Position numbers and translations under genes: made by a program. This document shows positions 3,435-42,183 of a stretch of 64,000 bases of DNA, piece by piece. Position 1 is the first letter of the stretch. The number at the start of each line of letters is the position of its first letter. The notes under the pieces are model-generated. The model searched no databases. It saw only the letters and a program-made list of their open reading frames with translations, and was not told where the DNA came from. Source of the DNA: Cystobasidium ongulense (Eukaryota > Basidiomycota > Cystobasidiomycetes > Cystobasidiales > Cystobasidiaceae); assembly GCA_022835595.1 (NCBI GenBank), contig BQUP01000009.1, forward strand, positions 248,001 through 312,000, written 5' to 3'.

Positions 3435-4805
3435 TTACTTGCCATCCCAAATGAACATATCTTCAGGAGAGGGTATGATCTTCTTCAGAGCATTGCCATA
3501 GTCGCCGCCATTGGGCAGGCGAAGAAGAGTATGGACATGGAATTTTGCTGGTTCTGTATTATTGAGGAAGACGCCGGAATGATGATCAAATTCTACAATA
3601 ATTGAAGGACTTTGTATACGGTAATAGAAGGGATCGTCATCGCCGAACCCGCCGATCCAGCAGAAATGAGTTTCCTCTGGATAGCTTAAAGCGTGTCTAA
3701 CCTGTTTGGCCCTGACGTTCTTTGGTAAAAATAGGAGATATTCATCTATTATAGCTTCAACTAGCTTTTGCTGCTCTTTGGGCATATCAACGTATCTGAT
3801 TCCTTCATATGGAACGACTCTGTTATCGCGATAAGCACCACAGTAATGCCTTTGATCATCGTGATTCCATCTACCAGGTGGCATTTTCTCATCATGCATC
3901 TTCTCAAAAATTCTAGCTTTCTTCTGTAATTCTGGTGATAGACTTTGCATGAGCTTGAGTCCTAAAGCTTCTTCTCTTTTCAGGATTGTTGTTCCTTTGT
4001 ATTTCCCACTGTCTATTTCATTCGGTTCTGCTCCAGTAAACCATGGCGCGATTACCATTTGTCCTTTGTAGAAGAAGATGTTCAAGCATAGATGATGGCC
4101 GTAGAATTGGAAGCCCCAGGGTCGCTCTACGCTAGGCTTTCCAAACAGAACGAAATTATACGAGTACTCGTTGCAGACGCGTTCGCCTTTTACCAGTTCT
4201 CCTAAGAAACCATTGATCCGCATTGCATTTATGGCTTTCTCATAGCCTTCGGGCGAAAGCGTGGATTTGAGAATGGCAAGGATAGAATCTCTGAGTTCAG
4301 GCGAGATCTCATCTAATCGCAGGCCTTTGTGGGAAATCAGGAACTCTGGATTTGACCATGTCCGCCATTCGGGTGCGTCGATGTGATAGGAGATCTTGGC
4401 GAGCTCTTCGGGAGAAAGTTGGGATGTAAGAGCTTCCACAGATTTTACGATGGATGCGAGATCGACTCCTTGATCTTCAATCGCGTATACTCCGTCTCGT
4501 AGGTTGCCTGTATATCGTTACAACGCGAAGGTGGGTGGTGGACCTCGATCAGCCTCGAGCACGCCGACTTGCAACATAATGCAAGACAGACCATCGTTGG
4601 TGACACCTTTCAGAGGCTCGGTAAGCAGCTTCTTCCAGTGCTCGACGAGAGCGAACAGCCAGGGTGGATTGTGGAGCTCGTTGAACTCGTCGATGTATTC
4701 GTGGGCGTTCTGCTTGCTCAAAGCCTGGAAGCGGGGCGTGTCCAAGTCGGGCAGATATTTCCTGTAAGCTCCGGTAGTCTTGAGAGCTGCTTGAGGTGTA
4801 CTCAT
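3435..4805 (-). CDS. DUF3500 family protein
   Basis: Two exons, 4592-4805 and 3435-4507, giving 428 residues. The 84-nt intron restores GVTNDGNLRDGVYAIEDQG, the family's turn before its central domain. The C-terminal half carries the usual conserved DUF3500 landmarks: GFQFYGHHLCLN, WFTGAEPNE, HFCWIGG and FDHHSG, with several His residues that could bind metal. The biochemical role of DUF3500 is not known to me. Start at MSTPQAAL was chosen as the nearest Met to the conserved N-terminal helix (YRKYLPDLD); upstream in-frame Mets exist. The donor (GTCTGT) is non-consensus. Convergent with the monooxygenase, 137 bp apart. Confidence 0.8.
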
Positions 4806-36591: not shown

Positions 36592-38233
36592 TCACAACGA
36601 GACACTCTGACCCTCACTCAAAACAGCAAAAGTACTTTTCCCACTTTTACCATTTCTATTCTTTCGTTTAATACTCCCCTGACCTCTCCTAAATTCAACG
36701 CTTCTCCTCTCTGTTCTATCACAAGCTGATTTCAATTGTGTGATAGCTTGAAGTGCTTGTGGTGTTTTGATTGAACTTGCGGGATCCTCGTCTTCGTGAT
36801 CATCGTCGAATGGGGACCCTGTAGTACGTGCTTTGAGACCGTGTATCATTGCGATGCTTAAACTGCTTCGCAATGATTGGTGTACATCCGCAGCTTCCAC
36901 AGGTGAATAGTCTTGTATCTGATTTGCTGCCTTGCTTGAGAAGAGCTATTCGCACGAGATTGCCAGACTTAGACCAGCGTCAAGGTGACTGAGCAAGAAT
37001 GGCAATAGCCCTTACCTTCTTGAAGAAGCTGGTTGCCTCTGGTTTCCCTGCCCAGACTGGGATAAAAGCGAGATCTAGCGGTCCATAGCGACTTTGTACA
37101 TCTTTCCATAATTCGTTGACGGATGTATCCGACTGCCCGCGAGGATGCGCCTTACGGCTTGAGCTTCTACAAATCACCATCATTGAAGTTAGCACACTAC
37201 TCTTATAGTGAACCAGCACTGGCAGTAGGCAATGGCTTGTAAAGACGTCAGAAACTCACGCAACGAAAAGTACTGTCGACTTGGTACCATCTTCCGCCGG
37301 CACTTTCTCAGAAGGAGTATTCTCGTGCTGAACGATCCAATGCGATACTCTTGAAGCCGCATGCTTCGAAGAAGAAGGTACTCCCTTGTCCGCGATGGCA
37401 GGGACTAACGTGACGCGCAAGCTTCTGGTAGCACTGTGTGAGATGACTTCATCTTTGAAAGAGCTGAGTTCGATAATCTGGCGTGATGGAATGCCTGCTT
37501 TGACGAGATTGTGGGATGCACCTATGAATACCAGATATATAGGTCATATTGTCAATATTTTCTCATTGTCCAGATGGCGTGTCTCATTTCCAAGCGAATC
37601 ACGACTCACCTGAAGCAACGATGAATGTCGTCGAGTCACGTTTATGCAATCCTAGCAGTGTGACAGTGTCAAGTTCTTCCAATCTACGAAATGATGTGTA
37701 GCCGAGGATGTGTAAGCACGAGTCACGTGAAGACTTACAAGCCACTAGATGCTTGACCGACTTACTCTGTATGCGATAGGAGGACGTAATGAATCTCAGG
37801 TAGGTCATCTAGATTTCTGATAGATCCACCAAGCGCCGATACTTTGCTGCTTGCTCTGAATCTGCAATACAGTGGATGATCAGTCCAAATTTGTTTTTGG
37901 CATGGCCGGCTTGGGCAAAAACACCTACCGGCCGCAAGACAGCAACGACGACGGGACAGCCCTCTGAGCTCGTCTCGAAGGGTTGAACAGCACATTGATA
38001 GTATCCGCAGGCCTTTTGAACGATTTAATGCCTTGTTCGTTTTTACGGGTTTGTGCCGAGACGCCCACGAATAATTGGACAAGGGCAGTCTTGACCAGCA
38101 GCAAACGCGTCAGACTTGTGGCACGGTAGGGCAGTACTGAAAGAGTGAAAGATATACGAACAGTCTCGCCTAGCCATGTAGCCTGCATGCTTCTGCCCAT
38201 CTTGCTGCTGTTCGAAGTAGAAGTCGACCGCAT
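36592..38233 (-). CDS. NAPE-PLD-like metallo-beta-lactamase-fold protein lacking metal ligands
   Basis: Six exons end at 36592: 37929-38233, 37766-37861, 37610-37683, 37260-37521, 37016-37166, 36592-36930. It aligns along its length with the intact copy at 38752-40668. The metal site is gone: SHNHYDHLD is SHTELEELD, TPAQH is VPAIAD, GGDTGYR is VASSSRKA, AIHHSTF is AMIHGLKA, and LFDPVFS is LFNPSRR. The frame stays open and fold-level motifs persist (ATWLG, YGPLDLAFIPVW, SPVEAADVH), so it looks like a maintained pseudoenzyme, not a decaying pseudogene. Start taken at the first in-frame ATG (408 residues at most). A 20-nt exon at 38427-38446 (MPAPSAL) spliced to 38264 would also keep frame. An intron matching the partner's (after ATWLG) may exist but is not certain. 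Confidence 0.75.
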
Positions 38234-38446
38234 TCTGTACCAGCTTTGTTGATTGCCACCAGATCTAGAGTTTTCGGCAGTTATGGCTTGTAAGCAGGAT
38301 CTGTGGTGAAGCGGTATACAAGCTCGAGAAGTATGCGAGTTCAAGCTATGCTGTATGAAGGTGACTGTGAGGCTGAAGAGAAGAGGATGGAGAAGAGCAA
38401 AGCCCGCTATAGCTCTTCGGTCCTACAGCGCCGACGGAGCGGGCAT

Positions 38447-38751
38447 GCGTGCGCACTTCCGAAGCAACGTTACCGTTGATGATAAATCTGAATTTGTAAA
38501 GCAAGAATTATATCAGAATTGGATACATTCAAGCGAGTCATGGTGAGAGTAGCAAGATGGCTGCATCATGTGTGTCGACAACGCAGGCCTTGCATTGCAG
38601 GAATTAATGATCATGCCTCATTGCTTCGACCTATAAATTTGCACATTTGTCCGAGCGCCTCGATCATCGAGATGTCCATCTACGGTACTAGTACTGACAA
38701 TGCAAGCTGAATGTGCCAATCACGTCTTGCACTGTAACACTGATCCTTTGC
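38447..38751. other. Spacer between the two lactamase-fold genes
   Basis: About 300-520 bp depending on the start used for the downstream gene. It should carry the promoter of the degenerate copy. No additional reading frame supported. Confidence 0.4.
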
Positions 38752-40668
38752 TTACACAACTAAACTCCCCCCAACATCAAGTACGACGAACTCCCCGATT
38801 TCTCCGGTTCCATCTCTCTTCTCTGCGCTGAGACGCCTGAAGCGGACACCGTCTGATGTCTCACACGCTTTCTGTAGAAGCCGAATAGACCATAGAGCTT
38901 CCTCATCTCCAACGAATGTAGAATGATGTATCGCTATACTTGTACGGGCTCGGATGTCTCGGTGCACATCAACTGCATCTTCAGGAGTGAGATGGTTTTT
39001 CCTAGTCCATGCCTCTGGCTTAACCTTTTGTGAGGAGAAAAGGAGGATGGTCGGTCGGATTATACATTGTGGTCTTAACTGAAATGACGACCTACTCTTA
39101 AGCCAAGCTTGTTTAGCCTGGACAGTAAGCCACCACGCCAAACTGGAATAAAAGCCAAATCAATTGGCCCAAATATCTGGCCGATTTCGCTGAATACAGG
39201 GCAGACGGGTCCATTGTTTGAATGACGATATCCAGTGTCTCTGAACGAGGAAATAAGTAGTAAAACTCATCAGGCTACCGCTCTTCAGGACGGTGGCGAA
39301 ACCAGATTTGGCGACTTACCCTCCGTGAAACACGCTCGATACCTTCACATGTCGCTCAGATACTATGCCAGGACTGCCTCCATCTTTCAAGTCATCGTGT
39401 ACGAAAGGTGTCATAGGAGCCAAAGCCTCTTCATGCTGCACTACCCAACTAGACCACAGCGTCTTGTTAAGATCTATCAGCAGTCGACCTGGGGTTCACA
39501 CAAGTCATTGAAAGAGTCAGGATAAGCGGCGCAACTACTAAGACATTTGTCAAACCTCACTGCTGTTGTGCTGTGCAGGCGTGCAGGTGATTTTGATGAC
39601 TCTCTCCGTCCCGAAGTGCAAATCCTCGTTCTCCCACCAATTCTTCTCTCTTATCTGCTGAAGTGATACACCCGCTTCAAGGAGTACCTTGCCACAGCCT
39701 TTCGAGCAACAAATATCAGCTATCAGCTCGACCGAGTATAATCGTTCTCCTAACTCACCTAATGGCACGAAATAAAGCGTTGCTTTAGCGGTGTCGTGCT
39801 CAACTAATTTTCTGATTGTATGAACATCAAGATGATCATAGCTAGTACACGTTTGCCAAAAGTCCAGTTCAGTTGAGAATAATTCCCGAGTCTCTTAGCG
39901 GGCCCAACTCACTGATTGTGTGATACGCAAACAGCATGTATCGTAGGCAAGCTGGACACGCTGCATGGAACTGGTAAACGGCGCTTCGGTCTGATAAGGT
40001 CAGGGTAGTAAAGTGAAATGTCGGCGTGCTTGGCCACGAAGCTGATATAGTCTGATGCGACCTACCCTACGCTACTGAACGGTGACGCTCGATGGCTGAA
40101 CACTGGATCAAAGAGCACATTAATCTCACTCGTTGTGGCTACATCGAGAGCACTTCCAAATTGGACAAGAACAGTCTGTTACGGACGTTCAAATTCAGAA
40201 GGATCATTTTGAGAGTGTAAGAAAGAGAAATCCACTGCATGACCTAGCCAAGTTGCTTGTAAGCTACCATCATCTGCAAATTGCCTGTGACGGGCACCCT
40301 TTTCAGGGAGGGTACCATCCTGAGGCGTGCTGATGAAATAGGGTTTGATGACAGAGATAGCTACGTCCCAAAGTTTGTCAATCTACAAGCATTGTCACTG
40401 TTCACAAAAAAGGCTGTTTTTACAACTCACGCTCGTCAGAATCTTCGCCAGGAGTTGACCTCTCGAACGGCCATTGCCGAAGCTCGCTCCATATAGAACG
40501 CTGAGCTGATGGCCAAGGACAAGTGAAGATACGGTTAGGTCGAGCAGTCTGCGTTGGTTCATCTCGCATCTGGGATGTAGAGGCAGGTGGCGGTGGCAGG
40601 TCGAACATGGTATGTTTTGTAGTCTGCTTCCGAAAGAGTGTGAAGATACGCGTTGTGTATGATTGCAT
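38752..40668 (-). CDS. NAPE-PLD-like metallo-beta-lactamase-fold hydrolase
   Basis: Zinc-dependent hydrolase of the N-acyl-phosphatidylethanolamine phospholipase D-like family. Nine exons: 40431-40668, 40236-40360, 40066-40175, 39913-39990, 39759-39841, 39561-39698, 39320-39488, 39096-39240, 38752-39024, totalling 452 residues. Landmarks: IFTCPWPSA (the family's NPWPS), LQATWLGHA, INVLFDPVFSHRASPFSSVG, then SHNHYDHLD (HxHxDH site, made by splicing), TPAQHNSS, LWSSWVV, GGDTGYRHSN, FGPIDLAFIPVW, LTPEDAVDVH and AIHHSTF. All metal ligands are present. No signal peptide. Substrate unknown; fungal relatives are often only annotated as beta-lactamase-like. Lies upstream of a degenerate paralog on the same strand. 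Confidence 0.87.
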
Positions 40669-41097: not shown

Positions 41098-41923
41098 TTA
41101 CCAAAGACCGGGCCTTGCTCTGTTGGCACCTTGTTTCGCAAGCGAATCTGCAAGTTTATTCTCCTCGCGGGGTAGCCACCTGAATTTGATTTGGACATCG
41201 AAAGCTTCTTCGCATTCATCTACGAAGAACATGAGCTTTTGGAATAGATCGAGGTGCATTGGTGTATTTCCAGCTGTGGTGCGCCAGTTTCGTGCCTATT
41301 CGGATCGATTGAGGGTGAATTCCAAGCAGGTTTCGACAGTCTCACGTCAGTATGCTGAGAGCCAACGCTGCGCACAGTATCAAGTATTCAGTTAGGCTCA
41401 CCTCCCATTTTGGCATCCATTCAACAATGCCTTTCACTACATATTCAGAGTCCATGGCAATTATCCAAATTTGCCCTTCTGCAGAGATACTAGCTCGCTC
41501 ATCGTTCTCTGTTATGCTCTCCTTGAGGAAACTTTCGATGTGCGCATTGTGAAGAGACATGAGACCGCGATGGGCTGCCAAAAGTTCGGCGCGTTGATTT
41601 GTGCGTGGCCCATCAGGGTCGTGACACGGATGAATCGGCAGTGAGGATTGCTGATGTTCTCTGTCGCCAAAAGCGATACCCATGCCGCTGCGGGCTCCTG
41701 GAAAGCCATTATCGAGACATGCACCATCTACGAAGACCACGCGAGTCTTCTGGCATGCAGGGCCAGCATGGCAGCAGATGGCGCGGAAGCGGCCGCAGCA
41801 TGAACAGCTGCAAAACAAATTGACGACGTCCCCATATTGCGCCTCTAACGCAGGACAGATAGTATAATAGCGAGTGTTTTGGCGCTGGTGTTTGCTGCGT
41901 TTATGATCGTCCAAGTCACTCAT
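41098..41923 (-). CDS. Ribonuclease H-like protein (type 1 fold)
   Basis: Two exons, 41402-41923 and 41098-41295, giving 239 residues. The RNase H fold is clear: VVFVDGACLDNG (first Asp), RTNQRAELLAAHRGL (Glu), IWIIAMDSEYVVKGI (second Asp), and after the 106-nt intron FRWLPREENKLADSLAKQGA, where the last catalytic Asp sits. A Cys-rich segment (FCSCSCCGRF, ICCHAGPAC) precedes the domain and could bind a metal. Such stand-alone RNase H-like proteins are common in fungi and would cut RNA in RNA:DNA hybrids. There is no reverse transcriptase or repeat next to it, and it has a normal intron, so I read it as a cellular gene. Confidence 0.85.
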
Positions 41924-42183
41924 TGTGAAACTGTCTTAGGGCCAGAGAGATGGTTTCAAGGATGCATTGACGAAAGCTAGAGCCAAGACGCAGTTCTCTA
42001 GTGAGACGATTCCAGCAGGCTGGTCTCCTCTTCCACTAAGCTGCACAATAGCAGACTTGTGCAACAATAAGCCGTTCGATCACCTTTTGCAGATTGCGGG
42101 TAACGACCAGAAGGAGATAGCGGGGATAGCTTGCACCACGATATGCACCGAGTCCGTCTTATCTGTACTTGCGGGGAATTGCT

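Follow-up and report, generated by a model that had tools for sequence, protein, structure and literature searches.

How a gene whose catalytic site has gone can stay open through several exons, next to a copy that has kept the site, is the question raised by two neighbouring genes in a 64,000-nucleotide stretch of the Cystobasidium ongulense genome (contig BQUP01000009.1, positions 248,001 to 312,000; the whole stretch is termed the window). An earlier note on this DNA described them as a tandem pair of NAPE-PLD-like genes, the upstream copy (here gene A) being intact and the downstream copy (gene B) a maintained pseudoenzyme without a metal site. On balance, we favour the view that gene A encodes an active hydrolase and that gene B stems from an old tandem duplication, with its scaffold and coding gene kept and its metal site lost.

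A tandem pair of NAPE-PLD-like genes

The gene models are as follows.

40562-38752, minus strand: gene A, predicted NAPE-PLD/Fmp30-type metallo-hydrolase, 424 amino acids, hand-made splice model
40562-40431, 40382-40236, 40175-40066, 39990-39913, 39841-39759, 39698-39561, 39488-39320, 39240-39096, 39024-38752, minus strand: the nine coding exons of gene A
38233-36592, minus strand: gene B, predicted paralogue without the metal site, 384 amino acids, hand-made splice model, start codon uncertain
38233-38162, 38089-37929, 37861-37766, 37683-37610, 37521-37260, 37166-37016, 36930-36592, minus strand: the seven coding exons of gene B

The two proteins are 28% identical (blastp E 2e-30) and share, as had been noted for two genes on the same strand, the motifs QATWLG, FGPIDLAFIPVW (gene A) or YGPLDLAFIPVW (gene B), and PEDAVDVH or PVEAADVH, respectively. 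Gene B is homologous to the NAPE-PLD/Fmp30 family domain, as seen by comparison with a profile of the active family (hhalign, probability 99.4%, E 4.6e-21), with human NAPE-PLD (PDB 4qn9; phmmer, E 4.8e-4) and with PF12706 (E 3e-4, under the curated family cut-off). Each of its six introns has the phase of a gene A intron, four being at the identical alignment column and the other two 3 and 11 columns off their counterparts; all introns in both models are GT-AG, with sizes of 48-93 bases. Over the 306 aligned codons the proportion of synonymous differences (pS) is saturated at 0.745 and that of nonsynonymous differences (pN) is 0.503; a "reliable" subset of 142 codons (pS 0.748, pN 0.385) is biased towards identity, so the values for all 306 are quoted. 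By sequence, genes A and B are ancient tandem paralogues. Besides these two, no further copy of either was found in the window (tblastn, E up to 1). Mutation of the repeat-induced point mutation type was considered and rejected, the TpA/ApT and CpA+TpG indices of both genes being like those of the window.

The upstream boundary of the pair had been put at 40668. Gene A starts inside it, with the best start at 40562 (MNQRR): the long frame that begins near 40668 hits a stop if spliced at the same donor and acceptor, whereas the frame from 40562 does not. The reading frame of gene B proved to be open, as the earlier note had it, although through seven coding exons from 38233, not six.

Gene A retains the metal site

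Gene A has a metallo-beta-lactamase (MBL) fold domain (PF12706, E 2.3e-27), and its nearest solved relative is NAPE-PLD (4qn9, E 3.8e-43, with the match covering both the metal site and the domain). The metal-ligand and catalytic positions, which we take to be D116, H154, H156, D158, H159, H227, D287, H345 and H367, are all present, i.e. the HxHxDH motif, the later His/Asp ligands and the catalytic His (9/9), and all nine are invariant in 11/11 active homologues. These 11 comprise gene A itself, one Parcubacteria protein (L001) and nine plasmid-borne proteins taken from the best 15 of 105 plasmid records, with L011 left out of the counts. Four of the residues presumably have equivalents in human NAPE-PLD as follows: H227 with H253, D287 with D284, H345 with H321 and H367 with H343. 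The locations are given below.

39832-39920, minus strand: gene A HxHxDH site, H154-N-H156-Y-D158-H159, split by the intron 39842-39912
39568-39570, minus strand: gene A H227, invariant in 11/11
39237-39239, minus strand: gene A D287 in GDTGY, directly after a phase-2 intron common to gene B
38994-38992, minus strand: gene A H345
38926-38928, minus strand: gene A H367

The claim that the upstream copy keeps both HxHxDH and the later ligands is confirmed by the motifs SHNHYDHLD (read across the intron), AQHNS, GDTGY, NHLTP and AIHHSTF. Searches for relatives of gene A returned one Parcubacteria locus (genome_contigs), the 105 plasmid records and one viral contig, and none in two other viral scans; NCBIfam gave weak matches below the cut-off for gene A and none for gene B. 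Gene A is apparently an active and ordinary member of the NAPE-PLD/Fmp30 branch of the MBL fold, as judged from its sequence.

Long tRNase Z carries one dead half, and genes A and B, which lie on the same strand 518 bases apart, might likewise be the halves of a single read-through or fused transcript. We regard this as very improbable: gene A ends with a family-like C terminus, with a stop after FVVLDVGGSLVV (the Parcubacteria relative ends FQVLDFGEMVVL), and gene B may have its own start codon.

Loss of the metal site from gene B

At the place of the HxHxDH site gene B reads SHTELEELD across the intron that matches that of gene A, so that HTELEE stands in place of HNHYDH and, of the motif residues, the first His (H108) alone is kept; the earlier reading of this segment was accurate. 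Further substitutions convert WLGH to WLGE, LFDP to LFNP, NHLTP to QDYSP and AIHH to AMIH. The residues concerned are located as follows.

38165-38167, minus strand: gene B E23, where 10/11 active homologues have His (WLGH)
37984-37982, minus strand: gene B N60, where 11/11 active homologues have Asp (LFDP)
37674-37773, minus strand: gene B H108-T-E110-L-E112-E113 replacing HxHxDH, across the corresponding phase-2 intron 37684-37765
37163-37165, minus strand: gene B S223, at the gene A D287 position by the shared phase-2 intron
37129-37127, minus strand: gene B D235, rival occupant of the D287 position
36912-36910, minus strand: gene B D279, at the gene A H345 position
36844-36846, minus strand: gene B I301, at the gene A H367 position

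That the downstream copy lacks all the other His/Asp ligands, as had been stated, holds for most of them, but the D287-type and H227-type positions depend on the alignment. Pairwise alignment and the intron, which follows GG|D in gene A and lies at A222|S223 in gene B, assign Ser223 to the D287 position. The H227 position is occupied by Ala178 according to hhalign and by H188 according to MAFFT, the latter by way of a 10-residue insertion and a 9-residue deletion. Gene B lacks the metal site, therefore, with from one to three of the nine catalytic positions kept depending on the alignment, and the loss of HxHxDH and of H367 is independent of these alignment-dependent points.

No H-x-[HDE]-x-[DE]-H motif occurs in any unspliced frame of gene B, in a scan that is also blind to the intron-split site of gene A. 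On the minus strand from 38500 to 36592 the only contiguous Asp-His codon pairs are at 37881, inside a model intron, and at 36801, so no plain alternative splice restores HxHxDH, junction-spanning pairs not having been scanned exhaustively.

The substitutions appear to have been concentrated at the catalytic positions. From gene A residue 84 on, to which the comparison is confined as gene B has nothing earlier, 14 of the 18 family-invariant non-catalytic positions are kept in gene B. Set against these, the catalytic positions give a Fisher test p of 0.039 if 3/9 are counted as kept, and of 0.0027 if 1/9 are, with H227 and D287 as lost.

The incoming residues are mostly acidic (E23, E110, E112, E113 and D279), and the pocket of gene B could have been rebuilt as the binding site of some other cation, for example Ca2+, Mg2+ or a basic headgroup, with a role in sensing or in a different chemistry. 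Among the 10 positions that we take to line the site, four are Glu and five acidic, versus 4.9% and 9.9% in gene B as a whole (binomial p 0.0010 and 0.0016, respectively, both computed post hoc), and three alignments would add D235. However, the pattern was recognized post hoc, Ile stands at the H367 position and, in hhalign, Ala at the H227 position, and the convergence of the side chains is putative; we consider such rebuilding improbable.

Probable retention of the gene B coding sequence

Over its 1155 coding bases the gene B model is free of stops and frame breaks, and none of its splice sites is lost. Its codon-usage score (0.10 per codon) is inside the 0.01-0.31 range of 14 long window open reading frames (ORFs), which were scored on themselves as the training ORFs, and its own frame scores best in 7/7 exons. 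Neutral decay was simulated from gene A residues 84-424 at three indel rates (500+2000+500 = 3000 runs). By the time that at least 7/9 of the catalytic positions had been lost, there were ~0.58 substitutions per site and ~10 stops on average; the frame was intact in 0/3000 runs, and 1/3000 was without a stop. When losses of at least 8/9 were considered, 0/3000 runs again had an intact frame. The outcome of the simulation implies that the site of gene B most likely disappeared at a time when selection still acted on the protein.

Several observations weigh against this reading. With respect to the site itself, a joint MAFFT alignment, hhalign and the phmmer match to 4qn9 all put D235, not Ser223, at the D287 position, and when the conservation cut-off is eased to 10/11 the Fisher p becomes 0.134 for the positions as aligned, or 0.0072 if H227 and D287 are taken to be lost. 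With respect to retention, at only 4/9 losses 2/3000 neutral runs were intact, such that loss in fewer steps is less excluded. The codon score of gene A is -0.03, below all 14 training ORFs, with its own frame best in 4/9 exons; since gene A itself scores low, codon usage is a supportive but weak witness. The gene B splice sites were picked by hand with the layout of gene A in view, which favours both the intron agreement and the open frame, although these are genuine GT-AG pairs and only the sites, not the intervening frame, were chosen. The first donor of gene B is weak (GTTCGT). Relatives of gene B were sought in viral_contigs and plasmids, and none was found.

The N terminus of gene B is a further point on the same side. 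Nothing in the model matches the first 83 residues of gene A; the family N-terminal segment (F-x-N and W), including positions kept in 9-11 of 11 active relatives, is missing. A search for the gene A N terminus in the 592 bases 38751-38160, in three frames, gave no significant match, the scores being equalled by 211, 387 and 40 of 500 shuffles. A frame break was also considered here, as a peptide in another frame upstream of QATWLGE is faintly like the N-terminal helix of gene A; its score was equalled by 281/2000 (local) and 345/2000 (global) shuffles and the candidate was dropped. Separately, the first intron of gene B (72 bases) is stop-free and in frame, and a form 24 amino acids longer is possible, near 38162-38233 and upstream.

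The missing N-terminal segment with no significant upstream match, the weak first donor and the Pfam score under the cut-off are what would be expected if gene B were a dying pseudogene, i.e. a duplicate, truncated at its N terminus, that had been under constraint until a recent date and whose ongoing decay shows no stops as yet. The uninterrupted coding sequence, the loss of catalytic residues ahead of other invariant positions and the failure of any of the 3000 neutral runs to stay intact at such a loss argue against a dying pseudogene, which we judge unlikely. By sequence, gene B combines a lost catalytic motif with a kept coding gene, as is typical of a pseudoenzyme, and it is most likely a retained pseudoenzyme rather than a young pseudogene; that it is a retained non-catalytic protein we hold to be probable. 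The proposal of a maintained pseudoenzyme accordingly gains from the open spliced frame, the intron phases, the codon usage, the saturated pS alongside a still alignable protein, and the simulation, while the missing N terminus weighs against it.

Comparison with known systems and possible role of gene B

The known proteins nearest to gene A are human NAPE-PLD (4qn9), which it matches over the metal site and domain, and yeast Fmp30p; gene B differs from them in being without the site. Fmp30p is reported to be a mitochondrial phospholipase D that hydrolyses phosphatidylinositol (PI) and has the HxHxDH motif; its H265N mutant reportedly gives no rescue and makes little to no phosphatidic acid (PMC13392021). 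Adjacent NAPE-PLD duplicates are also reported from C. elegans, where in vitro activity has been found for both copies, neither of which lacks the key catalytic residues (PMC4244089), in contrast to gene B, from which most of these residues are gone.

Pairs of an active MBL-fold enzyme and an inactive paralogue are known from another branch of the fold, that of RNA-processing proteins: CPSF100 and INTS9 are reported to be inactive and to heterodimerize with the active CPSF73 and INTS11, respectively, and the human NAPE-PLD structure is reported as a dimer (PMC4819959). Pairing of A with B is putative. In other enzymes, cases are on record in which a dead paralogue activates its partner allosterically (PMC3663545, PMC10211241), including the trypanosomatid deoxyhypusine synthase, in which a dead paralogue is reported to raise the activity of its partner 3000-fold in a heterotetramer (PMC3663545); this enzyme is unrelated to NAPE-PLD and the analogy is functional only. 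Among the literature matches listed, as judged from titles, hit counts and the opening of each abstract, none described a site-free paralogue in the NAPE-PLD/Fmp30 lipid branch.

With these precedents, gene A would be an active dinuclear metal hydrolase of the NAPE-PLD/Fmp30 type, phospholipase D-like in its reaction, and gene B would be translated and folded and would act without catalysis. The most likely mode would be for gene B to pair with gene A, NAPE-PLD being a dimer, and so to tune its activity, stability or membrane access; another option is that gene B may hold a lipid in the old pocket. The partner model, and with it the suggestion of the earlier note that gene B may bind or regulate the active partner or compete for substrate, is drawn from the CPSF100/INTS9 analogy and from the reported NAPE-PLD dimer, and binding would be in the style of CPSF73/CPSF100. 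Even given that gene B is a retained non-catalytic protein, we propose only tentatively that it acts through gene A. A weakness concerns localization. Budding yeast alone are reported to have kept both the mitochondrial targeting sequence and the transmembrane helix (PMC13392021). If gene A were mitochondrial like Fmp30p, gene B, whose model has no counterpart to the first 83 residues of gene A, would need gene A, or some other signal, to follow it.

A second tandem pair and other features of the window

An all-versus-all comparison of the 1105 stop-to-stop ORFs of at least 35 amino acids in the window, with overlapping ORFs excluded and an E limit of 1e-4, yielded matches at only two places, A/B and a second pair, C/D, in a comparison that short-exon or more diverged pairs could escape.

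50682-49775, minus strand: gene C, intact copy, predicted histidine phosphatase with RHGET, RARRT, EKYLGLMEG and THGG; 3' end of the model incomplete
48732-47532, minus strand: gene D, emptied copy with PHGST, KSALST, no EKYLG, and ISDP; 344 amino acids, open spliced frame, start uncertain

Gene C matches PF00300 (E 4.3e-31) and, with an E limit of 0.001, 64 sequences in the PDB, the best being 3e9c; gene D matches PF00300 (E 7.1e-12) and has no significant match in the PDB (best E 0.13). Of the five residues that we take to be catalytic in histidine phosphatases, gene D has lost four. The pair is 27% identical (E 5e-22; pS 0.768 and pN 0.505 over 251 codons), both introns are phase 0 and at the same place in the alignment, and the middle exon has 192 bases in both genes. 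When neutral decay was simulated from the 253-residue model of gene C, 0/2000 runs were intact. The order is the same in the two pairs, which belong to unrelated families (NAPE-PLD and histidine phosphatase): the intact copy lies upstream of the emptied one. Two of two pairs are too few for a rule, and we think it quite unlikely that they reflect a recurrent arrangement in this genome, in which a tandem duplication would leave, downstream, a catalytically emptied copy that is kept as a protein partner.

The window has a fungal look, with small introns and with eukaryotic genes elsewhere in it for a P4 ATPase, Aha1, DnaJ and a PHD-finger protein. Two further features are the following.

41345-41935, minus strand: ORF with an RNase H domain (PF00075, 2.2e-10), upstream of gene A
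3438-4517, minus strand: DUF3500 protein (1.7e-119), a family of unknown function

Implications

Dead partners of MBL-fold enzymes are already known in RNA processing, as CPSF100 and INTS9. If gene B tunes gene A, it would give a phospholipase akin to Fmp30p a control point that involves no catalysis; in yeast, Fmp30p was recently linked to coenzyme Q and mitochondrial PI. The C/D pair raises the question, on the scale of the genome, of how often, in this lineage, one copy of a tandem duplication is kept after being emptied. Were the arrangement to be recurrent, a genome-wide bias, whether from selection for dead partners or from a frame-sparing mutational process specific to duplicates, would be new.

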